Assembly (NCBI GenBank): GCA_008933835.1
Contig: WBUG01000016.1
Span: forward strand, 1-56,468
DNA from: Bacteroidota bacterium
GTDB lineage: Bacteria > Bacteroidota > Ignavibacteria > UBA10030 > UBA8401
Direction of reading: 5' to 3'
Length of the DNA: 56,468 bases
The translations under genes were made by a program, and so were the position numbers. Below the pieces are notes generated by a model. That model saw nothing but the letters and a program-made list of their open reading frames with translations. It did not search any database and was not told where the DNA came from. This document shows positions 2,974 through 10,653 of this stretch, piece after piece (positions within the stretch are counted from its first letter, which is position 1; every line of letters begins with the position of its first letter).

Positions 2974-3468
2974 TCACCGCCGGAGCTCCCTCGAGACCCA
3001 GAGCGCCCGCTTCAACTCCGCGTCGTCCTGCTGATAGATGGCCAGAAGTTTCACCACCGGAAGGTACATCCAGACCCCGTTCACGCTCAGGAAGTTCTCC
3101 GCCGTCCGGATCTCCGCCAGGAACCGCAGGTGCTGACCGGTGGTCACCACCGGCACGTCGGTACCGTACACCTGCTTCACCGGCAGCTTCCCGTCGTACT
3201 GTGCGATGACGCTGATGAGCCCGTTCACGCCGTTCCCCATCAGCTGGATGTACGGGCTCTTCCCCTTTCCGATGGCCGGCCGGTCCACCATGTACCCCGA
3301 AAAACTGATGACGCGCCCTTTCCAGGCCGGTTCGTCGCGGTAGAGCAGCTCGTTGTAGAACTCGAACGAGGCCTGCCGGACCACGGCGGAGAGGGCCGTT
3401 GCGTCGTAGTCCGGTCCCTGTCCGGCGGCGAACGCCGTCAGCGTCATGGAAAGAAGGAGCGTTCTCAT
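2974..3468 (-). CDS. small secreted protein, last gene of the sigma-54 operon
   Basis: The start is set at 3468, where a signal peptide begins (MRTLLLSMTLTAFAAGQ), giving 164 residues. A longer upstream reading frame is only antisense to the archaemetzincin gene and looks non-native. The start codon overlaps the archaemetzincin stop by four bases, so the two are translationally coupled. The mature part is a clear paralogue of the 2311-2808 product (ASFEFYNE, AWKGRVISFSG, LLAIYQQDDAEL, WVSRELRR). No catalytic motif or metal-ligand set is visible. Coupling to a metalloprotease gene suggests a shared envelope job, possibly as substrate, inhibitor or chaperone; that is inference only. Confidence 0.75.
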   Translation of the reverse strand: MRTLLLSMTLTAFAAGQGPDYDATALSAVVRQASFEFYNELLYRDEPAWKGRVISFSGYMVDRPAIGKGKSPYIQLMGNGVNGLISVIAQYDGKLPVKQVYGTDVPVVTTGQHLRFLAEIRTAENFLSVNGVWMYLPVVKLLAIYQQDDAELKRALWVSRELRR

Positions 3469-3998
3469 GGCTGCATCCCGATCTGTCGAAGGCAGGAAGG
3501 GCACAGCCCCGCTCCCTTCAGGTCGATGTCGTCCACGGTGGTGGAGGCGTGCATGGCGCAGTCGTAGTCGCGGCAGTGGAGCAGGCCGAACGTATGGCCG
3601 AGCTCGTGCACGCATTCTTTGAGGGTGCGTTCAAAGAGCTTCACCGGGTCCGCCTCGAGCCCGTACAGGACGTCGTCCAGGCGGTAGACGGACATGACGG
3701 CGGCGGTGCCGTCGAGCTGCGCTTCGCCGAAGACGTAGGTGAGCACCGGCACGAAGAGGTCCGCACCCGCCACGCCGAGCACCTTCTCCGGTCCGGCGGG
3801 GTACCGCTCCAGCAGCATACGGATGAGATCGGTGGAGTTGTACTGGCCGCGGGAGATGTCGTAGGTGCGGTCCATCGCCGAGCGGAGGGGCGGTTCCACG
3901 GTGACCTCGGTGCGGAAGACGGAGCCCACCGGACCGGCCACCGTCCGCACCAGCTCCTCGTTCACGGGCGCCAGCGGCACGATGCGGATGGGGACCAT
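3465..3998 (-). CDS. amzA: archaemetzincin-family zinc metalloprotease
   Basis: A 177-residue protein with the extended metzincin motif HELGHTFGLLH (residues 131-141). It is followed at once by the family-specific cysteines: C142, C147 with the Met-turn-like M149, and a CPSC pair at 166-169 expected to hold a second zinc. This is the archaemetzincin signature, a peptidase family known in archaea and scattered bacteria whose physiological substrates are poorly known. No signal peptide is present, so it is probably cytoplasmic. The gene starts one base after the stop of the NtrC-type regulator and overlaps the next gene by four bases, so it is part of the sigma-54 operon. A processing role for a subunit of that redox module is possible but unproven. 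Confidence 0.9.
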   Translation of the reverse strand: MVPIRIVPLAPVNEELVRTVAGPVGSVFRTEVTVEPPLRSAMDRTYDISRGQYNSTDLIRMLLERYPAGPEKVLGVAGADLFVPVLTYVFGEAQLDGTAAVMSVYRLDDVLYGLEADPVKLFERTLKECVHELGHTFGLLHCRDYDCAMHASTTVDDIDLKGAGLCPSCLRQIGMQP

Positions 3999-3999
3999 G

Positions 4000-5349
4000 C
4001 TACGGCTTCTTCAGTCCGTACTTGGCGATCTTGTTGTAGAGCGTGACGCGGTCGATGTCGAGGATCTCGGCGGAACGGGTGATGTTCCAGTGCGTCAGAC
4101 CGAGCACGGTCTCGATGTGCTGGCGCTCCACCGCCGCGAGGGTGTCGTCCTTCGGTCCTTCGCGTTTGGTGACGTTCTGGAACGGCAGGTCCGCGGGACG
4201 GATGGACGGGGGGTCCGCCAGTACCATGGCGCGCTCGACGACGTTCTCGAGTTCGCGCACGTTGCCGGGCCAGTCGTAGCGTACGAGCAGGTCCATCGCA
4301 TCGGACGAGACCTCCTTCACCGCTTTGTTCATCGCCGCGGCGTACTTCTTGACGAAGAAGTGGGCGAGCAGCGGGATGTCCATGCGGCGTTCCCGCAGCG
4401 GGGGGATGGAGATGCTGAACACGTTGAGCCGGTAGTAGAGGTCCTCGCGGAACGAGCCGTCCTTGATGGCCGCCTCGAGGTTGCGGTTGGTGGCGCAGAT
4501 GACGCGGAAGTCGCTGGTGATCTGCTCGTTCCCCCCCACGCGGGTGAACTGCTTCGTCTCGATGACGCGGAGCAGTTCCACCTGCATCTTGGGGCTCACG
4601 GTGCCGATCTCGTCCAGGAAGATGGTGCCGCCGTCGGCCATCTCGAACTTCCCTTTCCGGCGGTACTGCGCCCCGGTGAAGGCGCCCCGTTCGTGGCCGA
4701 AGAGCTCGCTCTCCAGCAGTGTTTCGGCCACCGCGCCGCAGTTGACGGTGATGACCGGGAAGTAGCGGCGTTCGCTGTTGGCGTGGATGGTGCGCGCGAT
4801 GAGCTCCTTGCCGGTGCCGCTCTCGCCGCGGATCATCACCGTGGTGTCGGTCTGCGCCACGGTCAGCGAAAGGTCGATCACCCGCTTGATCTGCGGACTG
4901 TCCCCCACGATCTCGTTGGCGGCGGTGATCTCGTTGATCTGCTGCCGGAGACTGGTGTTCTGCTCCTCGAGCGCCCGCTGCTGGATGGCGTTCGTGACGA
5001 GGTGCGACAGGTGGTCCGGGTCGATGGGCTTGGTGACGTAATCGAACGCGCCGTCCTTGAGCGCCTGCACCGCCGTCTCGACGGAGGCGAAGGCGGTGGC
5101 CATGATGACCTGCGACGTCCGGTCGATCTCGCGGAGCCGCTTGAGCAGTTCCATGCCGCTCATCCCGGGCATCTTGATGTCGAGAATGACCACGTCCCAC
5201 GGCCCCTTGTCCATCTTCTTCAGCGCATCGTTGGCGTTCTCGGCCGCCTCCACGCGGTAGCCGTCCTGCAGGAACCATTTGGTGAGCGATTCGCGGACGA
5301 TCTGTTCGTCGTCGACGATGAGGATGCTGTAGCGTTTTCCGTCTGCCAT
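4000..5349 (-). CDS. NtrC-family sigma-54-dependent response regulator
   Basis: 449 residues in the standard order. The receiver (1-120) has acidic pair D13/D14, phosphoacceptor D57 in [10 protein letters not shown] and K107. A linker precedes the AAA+ domain (about 147-375), which has Walker A GESGTGKE (175-182), the sigma-54 contact loop GAFTGA (222-227) and Walker [11 protein letters not shown] Fis-type helix-turn-helix (about 404-449) completes it. All functional motifs are intact, so it should activate sigma-54 promoters when phosphorylated. A GGAG ribosome binding site precedes the ATG. Its partner is the kinase gene immediately upstream. The operon is headed by a consensus -24/-12 promoter with an inverted repeat above it, so positive autoregulation is the simplest model. 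Confidence 0.95.
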
Positions 5350-5383: not shown

Positions 5384-7000
5384 TCACGCGCGCGCGGCGT
5401 CCGGCGCGTCCGCTCCGGGACGGAGCGGGAAGGTCAGGGTGAAGACGGTGCCGCCGCCGGGGGAGGCGTCCACCGTCACGGAACCGCCGTGGTTCTTCAC
5501 GATGCCGTACACCACCGCCAGGCCGAGCCCGGTCCCCTTCCCCTCCCTCTTGGTGGTGAAGAACGGCTCGAAGATGTGCGGCAGGTCCTCGGCGCGGATG
5601 CCGGTGCCGGTGTCGGACACCGTCACCGCGGCGTCGCCGGCGGCGGTGCGCAGCACGCTCACGGTGAGGTCGCCCCCCTGGGGCATCGCCTCCACCGCGT
5701 TGATCTGCAGCGCGAGCAGCGCCTGCAGCAGCTGTTCCGCGTCGCACACGAGCACCGCCTCCGGTTCCGCGAAGCGGGTCACCGGACGGATGTTGTTCAT
5801 CGCGAAGTGATGCGCCATCAGTTTCAGGCTCTGGTCGACGACGGCGCGCAGGCTCTCGGGCTTCATCTCGCCCACTTTGCGGCGCGAGAAGATGAGCAGG
5901 TTCTTGACGATGGAGCCGCAGCGCGCGGTCTCGTCCGCGATCATCTTCAGCTCGTCCAGCACGTCGGCCTTCTGTTCCGCGGTGAGCTCGCCGGCCTGCA
6001 TCCGCTTCCGGATGAGCTTCGCGTACGTGAGCACACCTTCGAGCGGGTTGTTCAGTTCATGGGCCACGGTGGCGGCCAGCGTGCCGAGCGACACCATCTT
6101 CTCCACCTGCACCAGGTTCGCCTGGGCCCGCCGCAGTTCCTCCGTCTTCCGTTCCACGCGCTTCTCCAGCGTGCGGTTGAGCTCCTCCAGTTCGTCCTGC
6201 GCCTGCTTGAGGGTCCGGGTCATGGTGTTGAACGACGTCGTGAGCGCGCCGAGCTCGTCGGTGGTGCGGACGTCGATGGTGTGGTCCAGCCTCCCCTGGA
6301 TGATGCGTTCGGTCCCCTCCTTCAGCCGCTTCACCGGTACGTTCACCGTGCGCCAGAAGAAGAGTCCCGCCAGTCCGGTGACGAAGACGATCATGGAGAG
6401 ACCGCCGAAGACGTACGCCTGTTCGAAACGGGCGATGTTCCGGTCCAGTTCGTCCAGCGGCACCATCACGTCCAGAACGCCGAGGATGGTCTGCGACGGG
6501 GAGTGCGCGTGGCACGCCGGGGTGTCACAGCCGGGCTCGTTCTTGATGGGGGTGATGACGCCCATGACGCGGTATCCGTTGGGGGAGCGGAAGGTGCGGA
6601 CCAGTTGCGGGTTCTGCGGGGTGACGCCGTCGCCGATGCCGCCGGCATGACACACGACGCACGCTTCGGCGGTCAGGTCCACGGTACGCCCGGTCTGCGA
6701 CGAATCGGTCGAGAAGGTGATGTCCCCCCGCTTATTGTAGATGCGGATCCCCTCGATGCCGGGTTCGGTGCCGATGGTGGTGATGATCTGGTAGATGTCC
6801 TCGCGGCGGTTGAGCATCATGCTGTAGTGGGTGGAGCGCTTGATGATGTCGCTGACGCGGGCGGCGTTGGAGGCGTAGTACTCGGTGTAGCGTTCGGCCT
6901 GCATGTCCGCGAGGACGAGCGTGACGATGGTGATGCCGATGACCATCATGACGAAGATGCCGACGAGGAGGCGGAAGGATAGGGAGCGAGTCAGTTTCAT
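5384..7000 (-). CDS. membrane histidine kinase with haem-c-like periplasmic sensor
   Basis: The start is set at the ATG at 7000; a TTG at 7084 would add 28 residues before the membrane segment. The 538-residue protein has TM1 (about 10-31), a periplasmic domain (32-195), TM2 (about 196-216), HAMP (217-270), a coiled coil, the DHp H-box VAHELNNP with H314, and an ATPase domain with N, G1 (DTGTGI) and G2 (GKGTGLGL) boxes. The sensor domain carries a canonical c-haem motif CxxCH (C114-H118) and a second, wider CX4CH (C158-H164). This suggests one or two covalently bound haems, that is, a redox or gas sensor. It lies 34 bp before the NtrC-type regulator and downstream of the NrfD/ferredoxin genes it presumably controls. 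Confidence 0.9.
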
Positions 7001-7090: not shown

Positions 7091-7912
7091 TTATCGCGAA
7101 TGCGGACGGAGCAGTCTGGTTAGAAGCTGAACGTATCGTTTCTCACCGATGAATTGCTCGATGGTCTCGATGCGCACGCCGCCGTCGAACATGGAGGTGC
7201 CGATCTCCTTCCGCTGGCGTCCCAGCACGGAGGAGAGGAGCGATTCCACCTTCTGGATGTCGGCGTCGAGCCGTGCGCGGTACTCGCCGGCGGTGTAGCA
7301 GCGGACCGGGACCTCGCTCGTTTCGGACGGAGCGATGGTCATCAGCCAGCCGGCGCCGTACGGGTCCGCGGTGACGGACGACGGGCGCGCGGCAAGGGAG
7401 GTGTTGATGCCGGTGACGATTCCGGAGACGGAGGAATAGAGGGAGAAGGTCTGGTCGTCGCGGATGAACCAGGCGAACGGGGAATCCTTCTCGACCCGCG
7501 AGGGGGTGCCGACCACGACCGCCGCCATCACGGGCTGCAGGAACTGGGCGATGTAGCCGTTCAGACCGATGCGGTAACCGCCGTCATCGGTGCGCTGCAG
7601 CCAGGAATGGTTGGCGACGTACAGCCGGTCGCCGGGAAGCTCGGTCCGTTTCAGCGGGGCGAGGAGATGACGGAGCACGTCGCCGAACATCCGGTCCGAC
7701 GCGTCCGCCGGCGCGGCGTGCACCGCTGCCGCGTCGCTCTGCAGGGCCGCCCGTTCGGCGAACGGGTGGTGCTGGGTGCGCATCACCCGGTCGAACGGGC
7801 ACTGGTCGCACTCGAAGCCCTTGTCGCAGAGCTTGTAGTTGACCAGGCCCGCGTCCATCCACACGCAGTGGCTCTCGTTCTCCGGAATGATGGTATGTGA
7901 TCCTGTTCCCAT
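7091..7912 (-). CDS. GcvH-fold protein without lipoyl lysine, cysteine-rich N-terminus
   Basis: The start is the ATG at 7912, preceded by GAAGGA; upstream in-frame sequence is antisense-like. Of the 273 residues, 1-48 hold a conserved-looking cysteine cluster (C16, C29, C35, C38, pattern CVWMDAG...LCDKGFECDQCPFD). Residues 93-200 follow the glycine-cleavage H-protein fold (LYVANHSWL...YRIGLNGY...SLYSSVSGIVTGIN...GAGWLMTI). Aligned without gaps to the GcvH lipoylation segment, the modified lysine position is D153, so the domain cannot be lipoylated in the normal way. The cysteines could bind zinc or an iron-sulphur cluster. It sits between NrfD and the haem-motif kinase. Automatic annotation as glycine cleavage H protein would be misleading; an electron-transfer or scaffold role is inferred. 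Confidence 0.85.
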   Translation of the reverse strand: MGTGSHTIIPENESHCVWMDAGLVNYKLCDKGFECDQCPFDRVMRTQHHPFAERAALQSDAAAVHAAPADASDRMFGDVLRHLLAPLKRTELPGDRLYVANHSWLQRTDDGGYRIGLNGYIAQFLQPVMAAVVVGTPSRVEKDSPFAWFIRDDQTFSLYSSVSGIVTGINTSLAARPSSVTADPYGAGWLMTIAPSETSEVPVRCYTAGEYRARLDADIQKVESLLSSVLGRQRKEIGTSMFDGGVRIETIEQFIGEKRYVQLLTRLLRPHSR

Positions 7913-7941
7913 GGTGCACCGTTCCTTCGGCGGAGGCGCCG

Positions 7942-9144
7942 TCAGTTGCGCGCTTCCATCATGGTGTTGACCGAATCGATGTCGCGTTTCCAGGCCGCCG
8001 CGGCGTGCGCCGGCACCGGTTCGCCCTCGCCCTCCTCGTGCGTGAAGACCGGGAAGTACTTCGCGATGAAATAGAAGGCGATGAAGCCGATGGTGACGAT
8101 CATGACCGTGATCATGAACTCCGTGATGGAGGGGAAGTACGTCGTGCCGGACCACCCTTCCAGCGCGGTGATGGCGATGTTCATCCGGTTCATCACGAAC
8201 CCCGCCACCACGAACGCCGCCCCCGTGAAGATCCACGTGGTGTGCGTGCGGAGCCGGCGCTGGGAGAGGATGGCGAAGGGGATGACGATGCCGACGAGCA
8301 CCTCGGCCCAGTACATGTACGTCTCGAACCGCGGGACGAGCAGCAGCGGGAAGACCTTCCGGTCCGCCAGGTCCACCACCTTCATCATGGTGAGCACGGC
8401 GAGCATCACCACGCAGATGCGGGCGATCTCGGTGAGCAGGTGCATCTCCAGACCGCGCTTGAAGGCGCGGCTGCTGAGGAACGACTCGAAGATGACCATG
8501 GCGCAGCCGGCCGCGATGGCCGAGACGTAGAAGAACACCGGCATGTAGGCCGAGTACCACAGCGGGTACATCTTGTCCGGCACGATGAGGAAGAGCGAAC
8601 CGAGCGACGACTGGTGCAGCGTGGAGAGGAGCACCCCCAGGATGATGAGCGGGATGCTGATGCGCTTCACCGCCTTGATGGTGCGCTCCATCTTGAAGCG
8701 CTCCAGGACGACGGGCGAGAACTCCAGCGCGAGCACGGTGGTGTAGAGCATCACGCACCAGGCCACCTCGAACATCACCGAGCGGGGGTTCCACATGATG
8801 ATGGCGTGCCAGATCTGCAGCGGACGGCCGAGGTCGAACATGAGCCCCACGATGACCAGCACATACCCGAGAAATGCCGTCAGGATGGTGGGCCGGATGA
8901 TCGGCTCGAACCGTTTGATGTTGAAGATGTACACGATGGAGGCGAGCGTGAAACCGCCGGCGGCGAGACCGACGCCGCACAGCACGTCGAAGCCGATCCA
9001 GATGCCCCACGGGAACTTGTCGCTCAGGTTCGTCGAGGCGCCGAGGCCGTGGAAGAACCGGACGTACGTGGAGTAGAGACCGGCGGTGATGATGGCGACC
9101 GCCACGACCTTCCAGAATCCGAATGTAGTGAGGAACTTTTTCAT
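7942..9144 (-). CDS. NrfD/PsrC/HybB-family integral membrane subunit
   Basis: A 400-residue protein with about ten hydrophobic segments and the family pattern (FPWGIWIGFDVLCGVGLAAGGF near residues 44-65, then GLMFDLGRP and WHAIIMWNPRSVMFEV). It most resembles the long HybB-like branch that anchors hydrogenases and related enzymes and exchanges electrons with quinones through a partner ferredoxin. An AAGGTGA ribosome binding site precedes the ATG, nine bases after the ferredoxin stop. No hydrogenase, molybdopterin or multihaem catalytic subunit lies nearby, so the enzyme it serves is unknown. The C-terminus is charged (EEGEGEP...) and probably cytoplasmic. Confidence 0.92.
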   Translation of the reverse strand: MKKFLTTFGFWKVVAVAIITAGLYSTYVRFFHGLGASTNLSDKFPWGIWIGFDVLCGVGLAAGGFTLASIVYIFNIKRFEPIIRPTILTAFLGYVLVIVGLMFDLGRPLQIWHAIIMWNPRSVMFEVAWCVMLYTTVLALEFSPVVLERFKMERTIKAVKRISIPLIILGVLLSTLHQSSLGSLFLIVPDKMYPLWYSAYMPVFFYVSAIAAGCAMVIFESFLSSRAFKRGLEMHLLTEIARICVVMLAVLTMMKVVDLADRKVFPLLLVPRFETYMYWAEVLVGIVIPFAILSQRRLRTHTTWIFTGAAFVVAGFVMNRMNIAITALEGWSGTTYFPSITEFMITVMIVTIGFIAFYFIAKYFPVFTHEEGEGEPVPAHAAAAWKRDIDSVNTMMEARN

Positions 9145-9153
9145 GGGGTCACC

Positions 9154-9927
9154 TTACTGATTGCCGTTGGAGGGATGGTTCATGTCGCGGTGGTTCCGCT
9201 CGAACTCGGCCACTTCTTCGCGCCGGTTCGTGATCCACCAGATGCCGAAGAGCATCACGCCGCCCACCGACACCACGCCGGGGATCTTGGACAGCGCGTT
9301 CCAGGTGAGCTGCGGCAGCGGTGACTGCTGCAGCGTCGTGCGGAACCCGAGGTTCTCGAACGGCACGGAGGAGATGTAGAGCACGGAGGTACCGCCCACC
9401 TCTTTCTCCCCGTAGATCTTCTGCACGTACTTGTCCGGTTCCGCCGCCAGGCGCTCGTACGCCTCCTTCAGCAGCTCCTCCCGGTCACCGAACTTCGTGG
9501 CGCCGGTCGGACACGCTTCGGAGCACGCCGTGGGAAGGCCCTGCGCCAGACGCTCGTGGCACATGACGCACTTCTGGACGCGCGGATAGGTGCTCGCCCA
9601 TTCGTACCGCGGCACCTGGAAGGGACACGCCTGCATGCAGTAGCGGCAGCCGATGCACTTGTCTTCGGCGTACACCACGGGACCTTCCGGTGTCTTGGTG
9701 AAGGCGCCCACGGGGCAGACCGACGCGCAGGTCGGATCGTCGCAATGCTGGCACAGGCGCCGGACATAGACGCCGTCATACTCCTGCAACGCGGTGTACG
9801 CGGTCGGGGAGAGCTCTTGTTCCTCGTGGTCGGGAAGCTTGTTGGCCTCTTTACAGGCCGTCTGACACGCGTTGCAGCCGACGCAGAGGGTGAGATCGAT
9901 CAGGAGAGCTTTCTTGGTGGTTGACAT
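9154..9927 (-). CDS. four-cluster ferredoxin subunit (HybA/NrfC-like) with C-terminal anchor
   Basis: 257 residues with sixteen cysteines in four groups: 15/18/21/25, 59/62/67/71, 91/94/97/101 and 120/123/135/139. This is the four-[4Fe-4S] arrangement of electron-transfer subunits that pair with NrfD-type membrane proteins. A single membrane segment lies at about 214-232, as in HybA. There is no N-terminal twin-arginine or Sec signal (the protein starts MSTTKKALLIDLTLC), so the clusters probably face the cytoplasm unless it is exported with a partner. A clear AGGAG lies eight bases before the ATG. The gene is 15 bp after the first GcvH-like gene and 9 bp before the NrfD gene. Confidence 0.93.
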   Translation of the reverse strand: MSTTKKALLIDLTLCVGCNACQTACKEANKLPDHEEQELSPTAYTALQEYDGVYVRRLCQHCDDPTCASVCPVGAFTKTPEGPVVYAEDKCIGCRYCMQACPFQVPRYEWASTYPRVQKCVMCHERLAQGLPTACSEACPTGATKFGDREELLKEAYERLAAEPDKYVQKIYGEKEVGGTSVLYISSVPFENLGFRTTLQQSPLPQLTWNALSKIPGVVSVGGVMLFGIWWITNRREEVAEFERNHRDMNHPSNGNQ

Positions 9928-9942
9928 GACGTGCTCCTACGG

Positions 9943-10593
9943 TTACTCGATGCGGAGGAATTCGGACTCGAACCGCTTGCACTGCTCGGGGTTCATGCGG
10001 TCCATGAGCCCGCCCGCCGGCAGTCCGCCGTCCTGCATGAACGCCGGGACCGGACCCGCCGCCTGGGCGAAGAAGTCGCGGAGACGGCCCATCTCGGTGC
10101 GCAGCCACACGCGCGTGTCTTCGCCGAGGTAGAACGCCCGCAGATCGTTGGTGCGCGACGGCTTGATGGTGTACGCCCAGCCTTCGCTGAAGAGCGCTTC
10201 GTTCAGCAGCGAGGGGTTCTTCGGCAGGGTGGCGTTGACGGTGTCGATGACGCCGTCGATCGGGGAACGGACGATGACCTCATTGCCCCCTTCGCTCACG
10301 CGGAGGATGGGCTCGCCTTTCACCACATGCTCCGACGCGTTCTTCAGCAGGGAGACCTGCGGCGCGGAGAACATGCGGGCCAGGAAATCGTCGATGCCGA
10401 GCTGCACCTTCCCCGAGGGGAACAGGCTCAGCCAGGTGTGGGACTTGGTGAAGAAGATGCCGGCCGGCGTCCGCATCGGGATCGCCTTTTGCAGCACGGG
10501 CTGCAGCACGGCAACGGCCGCCTTGTTCCGGCGGAGGAAGTAATCGATGGCGAGGAACACCACGATTGTCGAGACGAACAGTAGAACGGTCAT
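9943..10593 (-). CDS. membrane-anchored GcvH-fold protein without lipoyl lysine; first gene of operon
   Basis: 216 residues. A membrane anchor (about 2-20) is followed by an H-protein-like domain: FFTKSHTWL near 47, KVQLGIDDF near 62, GEPILRVSEGG near 93, SPIDGVIDTVN near 110, then NPSLLNEALFSEGWAYTIKP. An ungapped match to the GcvH lipoylation segment places G103 where lipoyl-lysine should be, so it is not a substrate for lipoylation in the usual way. A strong AAAGGAG precedes the ATG. It is the first gene after the sigma-54 promoter. Two divergent lysine-less H-type proteins in one NrfD/ferredoxin operon imply a specific structural role, possibly holding a cofactor or bridging the ferredoxin to a partner enzyme. 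Confidence 0.85.
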   Translation of the reverse strand: MTVLLFVSTIVVFLAIDYFLRRNKAAVAVLQPVLQKAIPMRTPAGIFFTKSHTWLSLFPSGKVQLGIDDFLARMFSAPQVSLLKNASEHVVKGEPILRVSEGGNEVIVRSPIDGVIDTVNATLPKNPSLLNEALFSEGWAYTIKPSRTNDLRAFYLGEDTRVWLRTEMGRLRDFFAQAAGPVPAFMQDGGLPAGGLMDRMNPEQCKRFESEFLRIE

Positions 10594-10637: not shown

Positions 10638-10653
10638 AGCAAGCGGCGTGCCA
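10638..10653 (-). promoter_or_regulatory. sigma-54 (-24/-12) promoter
   Basis: On the minus strand the sequence is TGGCAC-GCCGC-TTGCT, an exact match to the sigma-54 consensus TGGCAC-N5-TTGCW. It lies 45 bp before the ATG at 10593, giving a leader of about 34 bases with a good AAAGGAG ribosome binding site. The operon it heads encodes an NtrC-type activator with an intact GAFTGA loop, which supports the call. Confidence 0.85.

Follow-up and report, generated by a model that had tools for sequence, protein, structure and literature searches.

H-protein folds without the lipoyl-lysine in an NrfD and two-component operon of an Ignavibacteria genome

In textbooks, H proteins are carriers whose only means of action is the lipoyl arm. 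What, then, would such a fold do in a protein which lacks the lipoyl-lysine? The question is raised by a stretch of 56,468 nucleotides from a Bacteroidota bacterium of the class Ignavibacteria (contig WBUG01000016.1 of assembly GCA_008933835.1; "the window" hereafter means this whole stretch). Its minus strand encodes a tightly spaced cassette in the order GcvH1, FeS, NrfD, GcvH2, histidine kinase (HK), regulator (RR) and archaemetzincin (AMZ), in which GcvH1 and GcvH2 are H-fold proteins without that lysine. Our reading, which we hold tentatively and at a little under even odds, is that such lysine-independent H-fold domains are adaptor or regulatory subunits coupling a redox-sensing two-component system to electron-transfer complexes. 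Both genes are real minus-strand open reading frames (ORFs) of 216 and 273 amino acids (aa); the latter figure is the true length of GcvH2, and a 639-aa ORF listed at the same place begins too early. The features of the two proteins are as follows.

9943..10593, minus strand: GcvH1, membrane-anchored H-fold protein of 216 aa (Pfam PF01597, 43.1 bits; AlphaFold mean pLDDT 91.5; VIA Z 17.9 to 3a7l)
10285..10287, minus strand: codon of G103, equivalent of lipoyl-Lys64 in E. coli GcvH (alignment and structure)
10024..10032, minus strand: DGG motif of GcvH1 (D188–G190) in the C-terminal tail (alignment of relatives)
7091..7912, minus strand: GcvH2, H-fold protein of 273 aa with an N-terminal Cys4 segment (PF01597, 53.4 bits; AlphaFold mean pLDDT 83.6; VIA Z 17.9 to 3a7l)
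7454..7456, minus strand: codon of D153, equivalent of lipoyl-Lys64 (alignment and AlphaFold model)
7799..7867, minus strand: Cys4 segment CVWMDAGLVNYKLCDKGFECDQC of GcvH2 (C16, C29, C35, C38; alignment of relatives)
7178..7186, minus strand: DGG motif of GcvH2 (D243–G245) in the C-terminal tail (alignment of relatives)

The H fold and its lipoyl site

GcvH1 and GcvH2 lack the lipoyl-lysine while keeping the H-protein fold. In alignment with GcvH of E. coli and of this genome, GcvH1 has Gly (G103) and GcvH2 has Asp (D153) in the lipoyl-lysine column. AlphaFold models, made with 51 relatives for GcvH1 and 59 for GcvH2, had GcvH crystal structures as their best structural matches (Foldseek E ~1e-10 and ~1e-11), with VIA Z of 17.9–18.1 and a root-mean-square deviation (rmsd) of ~1.5 over 126–128 residues. 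For GcvH2 against E. coli GcvH (3a7l) the rmsd was 1.5 over 128 residues. Residues 40..167 of GcvH1 superpose on E. coli 1..128, an equal number of residues, hence G103 corresponds to residue 64, which we take, counting along the mature protein, to be the E. coli lipoyl-lysine. D153 lies at the matching hairpin tip, between strands 145–151 and 154–159 of the GcvH2 model, and both residues thus occupy the tip of the hairpin that carries the lipoyl arm in GcvH. The match lists are dominated by the H domain and are uninformative for the Cys4 segment and the DGG tail.

These results bear out a first-pass annotation, made from the letters alone, which had described two H-fold proteins without the lipoyl-lysine and had proposed structure prediction and superposition on GcvH as the check; the fold was the same, at VIA Z ~18. 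The fold landmarks it had quoted around the lipoyl segment are present in both proteins, GcvH1 begins with the membrane anchor it had named (a hydrophobic helix, residues 2–27 in the model) and GcvH2 with its four cysteines. It had also expected both to be mis-annotated as GcvH, which is true of Pfam GCV_H (PF01597), whose cut-off of 22.2 bits both exceed, but not of the NCBIfam GcvH equivalog (TIGR00527), where scores of 31.4 (GcvH1) and 50.2 bits (GcvH2) fall far below the cut-off of 115.85. Pfam GCV_H matches alone are hence no proof of glycine cleavage or lipoylation.

A profile scan of 84,980 species genomes gave 80 loci with 135 relatives. Lysine occupies the lipoyl column in 10 of 134 family domains versus 20 of 20 true GcvH, the residues in the family being G, D, N, E, S and others. 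Larger, partly redundant sets gave 4/73 and 4/97, where lysine makes up 4.7 and 5.1% of residues overall. As the column is variable and lysine occurs near its background rate, the position is an unconstrained turn with no new fixed residue; the loss that the first-pass annotation had suspected is real in both window proteins but is not fixed in the family. Three GcvH1 relatives, those at loci L058, L064 and L066, have lysine at the column (EGKNEVIV).

Could lipoylation, or another acylation, occur at a different lysine or in the minority with a tip lysine? The preserved fold and hairpin speak for this, as does the tip lysine of those 10 domains, which occurs once as HKAA in the genome's second cluster. 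However, the H domain has no conserved lysine column, the most lysine-rich ones reaching 51% (GcvH1) and 42% (GcvH2), and tip lysines occur at background rate, mostly without the E-x-x-K context of GcvH. We consider this explanation improbable. K27, the exception to these maxima, sits in the Cys motif of GcvH2, outside the H domain. No alternative alignment restored a conserved lysine, and a substitute lipoyl-lysine elsewhere in the H domain was rejected for want of such a column. In the tree, all 20 lipoylatable proteins lie to the same side of a branch supported at 100/100, although the true GcvH set is mostly from Bacteroidota and the deep history is therefore not settled by it.

The genome encodes five GCV_H proteins: an ordinary GcvH on contig C56, GcvH1 and GcvH2, and a further pair in a cluster on contig C79. 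The first bears the lipoyl-lysine (EAVKAVSD), hence the GcvP encoded in the window (24281–21405) is not without a lipoylatable partner. The earlier concern that this GcvP needs a lipoylated H protein is answered by the protein on C56. The second, paralogous cluster (L006:7382-18294, G000 contig C79) comprises GcvHa with a Cys-rich N-terminus, a multiheme cytochrome, a molybdopterin-type oxidoreductase, an Fe-S protein, NrfD, GcvHb, a heme-motif kinase, an archaemetzincin and a sigma-54 regulator. GcvHb of this cluster has the HKAA lysine at the lipoyl column; most GcvHb orthologues have no lysine there.

Conserved residues outside the lipoyl site

The conservation that is missing from the lipoyl column is found elsewhere in both proteins. 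The DGG motif of GcvH1 is invariant in 18 and at least 90% conserved in 51 aligned relatives, the DGG tail is constrained in both the GcvH1 and GcvH2 types, and H52, W54, G66 and W139 are further conserved residues of GcvH1. In GcvH2 the motif C16-x12-C29-x5-C35-x2-C38, within CxW...YKLCD...C..C, has cysteines that are invariant or nearly so in relatives. Purifying selection on the DGG tail, on H52/W54/G66/W139 and on Cys4 argues that these genes are not decaying. Degenerate, functionless GcvH paralogues would account for the lost cofactor site, but gene order, DGG and Cys4 are conserved long-term across phyla; on these conserved motifs the idea was rejected, and we regard it as highly improbable.

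The cysteines suggest another explanation, in which GcvH2 binds zinc or an Fe-S cluster through Cys4 and shuttles electrons or a metal to an NrfD/Hdr complex, a metal centre replacing the lipoyl arm. Four invariant or near-invariant cysteines (CxW...C...CxxC) are consistent with this, as are a Cys4 part that folds at low confidence without ligand and redox modules that always adjoin. However, the Cys4 motif is missing from GcvH1, from both of the receiver–GcvH forms described below and from one GcvH2 (L048), hence metal carriage is not the common function, and two cysteines 12 residues apart fit no known cluster motif among those testable. We hold this explanation to be unlikely, even if Cys4 itself may bind a metal. 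Cys4 as a general module was also considered and rejected, as in the phylum sample (118 genomes) only GcvH2-type ORFs carry the motif.

An operon under a sigma-54 promoter, its recurrence and its fusions

The remaining features of the cassette are listed here.

10638..10653, minus strand: sigma-54 (-24/-12) promoter TGGCACGCCGCTTGCT, 45 bp upstream of the GcvH1 start codon
9154..9927, minus strand: 4Fe-4S protein, HmcB/HybA-like, without Tat signal (PF13247; best NCBIfam match HmcB)
7942..9144, minus strand: NrfD-family membrane protein, HmcC/HybB-like (PF03916, 101.4 bits; best NCBIfam match HmcC)
5384..7000, minus strand: sensor histidine kinase; CxxCH and Cx4CH lie between membrane segments 1 and 2 (HAMP, HisKA, HATPase_c)
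4000..5349, minus strand: NtrC-type sigma-54 response regulator (Response_reg, Sigma54_activat, HTH_8)
3465..3998, minus strand: archaemetzincin-family metalloprotease (PF07998, 70.5 bits)

By domains and promoter, the regulatory genes are of the NtrC type, with a HisKA and HATPase kinase and a regulator made of receiver, sigma-54 activator and Fis helix-turn-helix (HTH). Both the CxxCH and a second C(x3-4)CH motif are kept in 82 of 83 high-scoring kinase homologues, which suggests heme binding in the sensor part. Two Desulfobacterota kinases (L110:11813-14080 and L116:5273-6724) start with Rossmann-like segments (NLAIVGAGRQG, NIAVVGGGVRC) and not with the heme-motif sensor; these may sense a nucleotide cofactor. 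The archaemetzincin belongs to family M54 by its Pfam score and its HExxHxxGxxHCx4CxM motif (HELGHTFGLLHCRDYDCAM in the window), and the zinc motif is kept in 89 of 91 homologues; any role it has in the system is conjectural.

The sigma-54 consensus TGGCACRN4TTGCW has a single match in the window, with 0 mismatches, before GcvH1, where ~0.025 exact matches per window would be expected by chance. Among 109 loci, 41 of 74 sites fall in the 400 bp before a GcvH1- or GcvH2-type gene, ~47-fold the density elsewhere, although the fetched loci include near-duplicates and these counts are therefore inflated. In Desulfobacterota GcvH2 itself is preceded by a sigma-54 promoter, as are the genes for methylenetetrahydrofolate reductase (MTHFR) of L112 and L131.

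Is the cassette a matter of chance or of one odd genome? This was rejected, as dozens of loci have the GcvH1/GcvH2 pair. At least eight phyla, named from record titles, have the whole cassette or some of its parts (Bacteroidota, Gemmatimonadota, Desulfobacterota, Acidobacteriota, Planctomycetota, Nitrospirota, Calditrichota and KSB1). Ignavibacteria-type loci hardly depart from the seven-gene order, and all of it or large parts of it recur across phyla. Archaemetzincins and strong matches to the GcvH2 profile (E ≤ 1e-36) co-occur within the class: among 149 genomes, 57 have both, one has GcvH2 only, nine archaemetzincin only and 82 neither. As the threshold was picked once the results were known, and relatedness of the genomes was not corrected for, the Fisher p of ~3e-30 for this co-occurrence is indicative only. 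In Desulfobacterota, kinase, regulator, archaemetzincin and GcvH2 occur together without NrfD, their neighbours being HdrA, HdrB-like and MTHFR proteins (L131, L112) or molybdopterin-type genes (L116). Relatives there adjoin hdrABC/metF, with the H-like gene as apparent sigma-54 target.

Gene fusions join the H domain to both signalling and redox partners. In a long receiver–GcvH form of ~385 aa, a membrane helix and receiver domain precede the H domain; full-length copies occur in 15 genomes, from 12 genera. A short, soluble form of 264 aa adjoins it. Both domains exceed their Pfam cut-offs, and the receiver retains the acidic pair, phospho-Asp, Thr/Ser and Lys positions. Neighbours in these clusters are a Tat-signal Fe-S protein, NrfD, a 13-heme cytochrome and a heme-motif kinase. 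The adjacent pairs are given below.

Short plus long receiver–GcvH: L155:7038-9048, L156:8243-10281, L157:7846-9811, L158:6477-8451, L159:6991-8992, L090:3976-6072

The receiver domain places receiver–GcvH in the cytoplasm. As the Fe-S subunit has no Tat signal in the window type but has one in L155–L158, the two types of module probably face opposite sides of the membrane. In L110 (6082-7173), one ORF joins an H domain to an HdrC-like dicluster ferredoxin; it lies between the HdrA and HdrB genes, and a second H-like gene and GcvH2 follow. The strongest hints of an H domain that itself stands between signalling and electron transfer come from these fusions.

A simpler possibility is that an NrfD-type quinone oxidoreductase has GcvH1 and GcvH2 as fixed subunits for scaffolding or assembly, with which the two-component system, controlling expression only, makes no contact. 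The tight operon with FeS and NrfD, the membrane tether of GcvH1 and the GcvH–HdrC fusion would all agree with it, and the position of the sigma-54 promoter makes GcvH-like genes expression targets. However, in many Desulfobacterota loci GcvH2 has a sigma-54 promoter to itself and neither NrfD nor FeS is close by, and receiver–GcvH fusions imply phosphorylation-dependent control of the H domain. We give this possibility a minority share of our belief, and our preference, itself provisional and below one half, is for an adaptor or regulatory role; a purely structural role ranks second and the carriage of metal or electrons third.

In the adaptor reading, the kinase would probably sense redox state or a ligand through c-heme-type motifs in its extracytoplasmic part and would phosphorylate the NtrC-type regulator, which would activate the sigma-54 promoter before GcvH1; since this is the promoter of its own operon, we propose that the whole operon is positively autoregulated. 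The products would be a quinone-facing NrfD membrane subunit, a cytoplasmic ferredoxin-like subunit, membrane-tethered GcvH1 and soluble GcvH2 with its Cys4 site. As adaptor or regulatory subunits, the H-fold proteins would most likely dock to the complex on its cytoplasmic side, where they would position the Fe-S subunit or gate electron flow and carry no substrate on a lipoyl arm. Sequence establishes the fold, the lysine independence, the DGG and Cys4 motifs, the operon and its promoter, the recurrence and the fusions; heme sensing, phosphotransfer, docking, gating and a metal at Cys4 are inferred. A bolder version, which we think doubtful but worth stating, makes the H fold a lipoate-free two-component output: phosphorylated receiver–GcvH, or the sigma-54-controlled GcvH1/GcvH2 pair, would bind and gate NrfD/Hdr complexes, and a heme-sensing kinase would control respiration directly and post-translationally.

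Several observations weigh against the adaptor reading, among them the inflated promoter counts given above. The GcvH–HdrC fusion is one metagenome ORF, and the Cys4 region of GcvH2 was modelled at pLDDT ~50 with no metal site apparent. Lysine stands at the lipoyl column in 3/9 GcvHb and 2/6 long receiver fusions, hence some members may be modified. HK-RR-AMZ occurs without GcvH-like genes nearby at L139, L140, L142, L143 and L144, and GcvH2 is absent at L145, so the parts are not obligate partners.

The same five HK-RR-AMZ loci also lack NrfD, and several adjoin large proteins with secretion-sorting-like C-terminal segments. Its occurrence without GcvH-like genes marks the trio as a wider unit, and it may be a general one.

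If the adaptor reading is right, a large family would put the H fold to a new use, in which the lysine is dispensable and the fold is tied to electron-transfer complexes, a sigma-54 regulator and a sensor kinase. This would also suggest a direct protein-level link from two-component signalling to respiratory or Hdr complexes, including those of sulfate reducers such as the ethane-consortium partner Eth-SRB2.

Comparison with known systems

In the open-licence papers searched we found no description of the cassette or of receiver–GcvH fusions, and nothing on GcvH with NrfD, hdrA/metF or response-regulator output, nor on archaemetzincin with sigma-54. The window proteins share the GcvH fold along the whole domain (PF01597/TIGR00527), but differ in lacking the lipoyl-lysine, in falling under the equivalog cut-off, in having no gcvT or gcvP in their operon, and in adding an N-terminal membrane helix or Cys4 and a C-terminal DGG tail. 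With this defining lysine absent, they are probably not H proteins in function. Like TIGR03077 (not_gcvH) and NF045810 (GcvH_rel_desulf) they are H-protein-like and outside a glycine cleavage operon, but they score 13–24.8 bits against cut-offs of 144–150 and belong to neither family.

LbpA of the sulfur-oxidising sHdr system is likewise an H-protein fold recruited from glycine cleavage to a redox complex, and relatives of the window family adjoin HdrA/B/C. However, the lipoyl-lysine is kept in all 95 LbpA examined (PMC6067878), whereas it is unconserved in the window family, which is accompanied by a two-component system and archaemetzincin, and the window cassette has no hdr gene.

The closest matches of the FeS and NrfD subunits are HmcB and HmcC, of the Hmc/HybA-HybB modules. 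The NrfD protein passes the Pfam NrfD cut-off and is thus a member of that family, but both subunits score under the NCBIfam cut-offs for Hmc (265.8 against 420 bits for HmcB and 336.4 against 550 for HmcC). The window Fe-S protein also has no Tat signal, two H-fold proteins are added, and the operon has neither cytochrome nor hydrogenase.

With NtrC-family systems of the AtoSC/ZraSR-like kind, the cassette shares the HisKA/HATPase kinase, the receiver-AAA-Fis regulator and the sigma-54 promoter. It differs from them in a sensor with c-heme-type motifs, in an obligate-looking archaemetzincin neighbour, and in that its relatives use an H-fold domain as receiver output.

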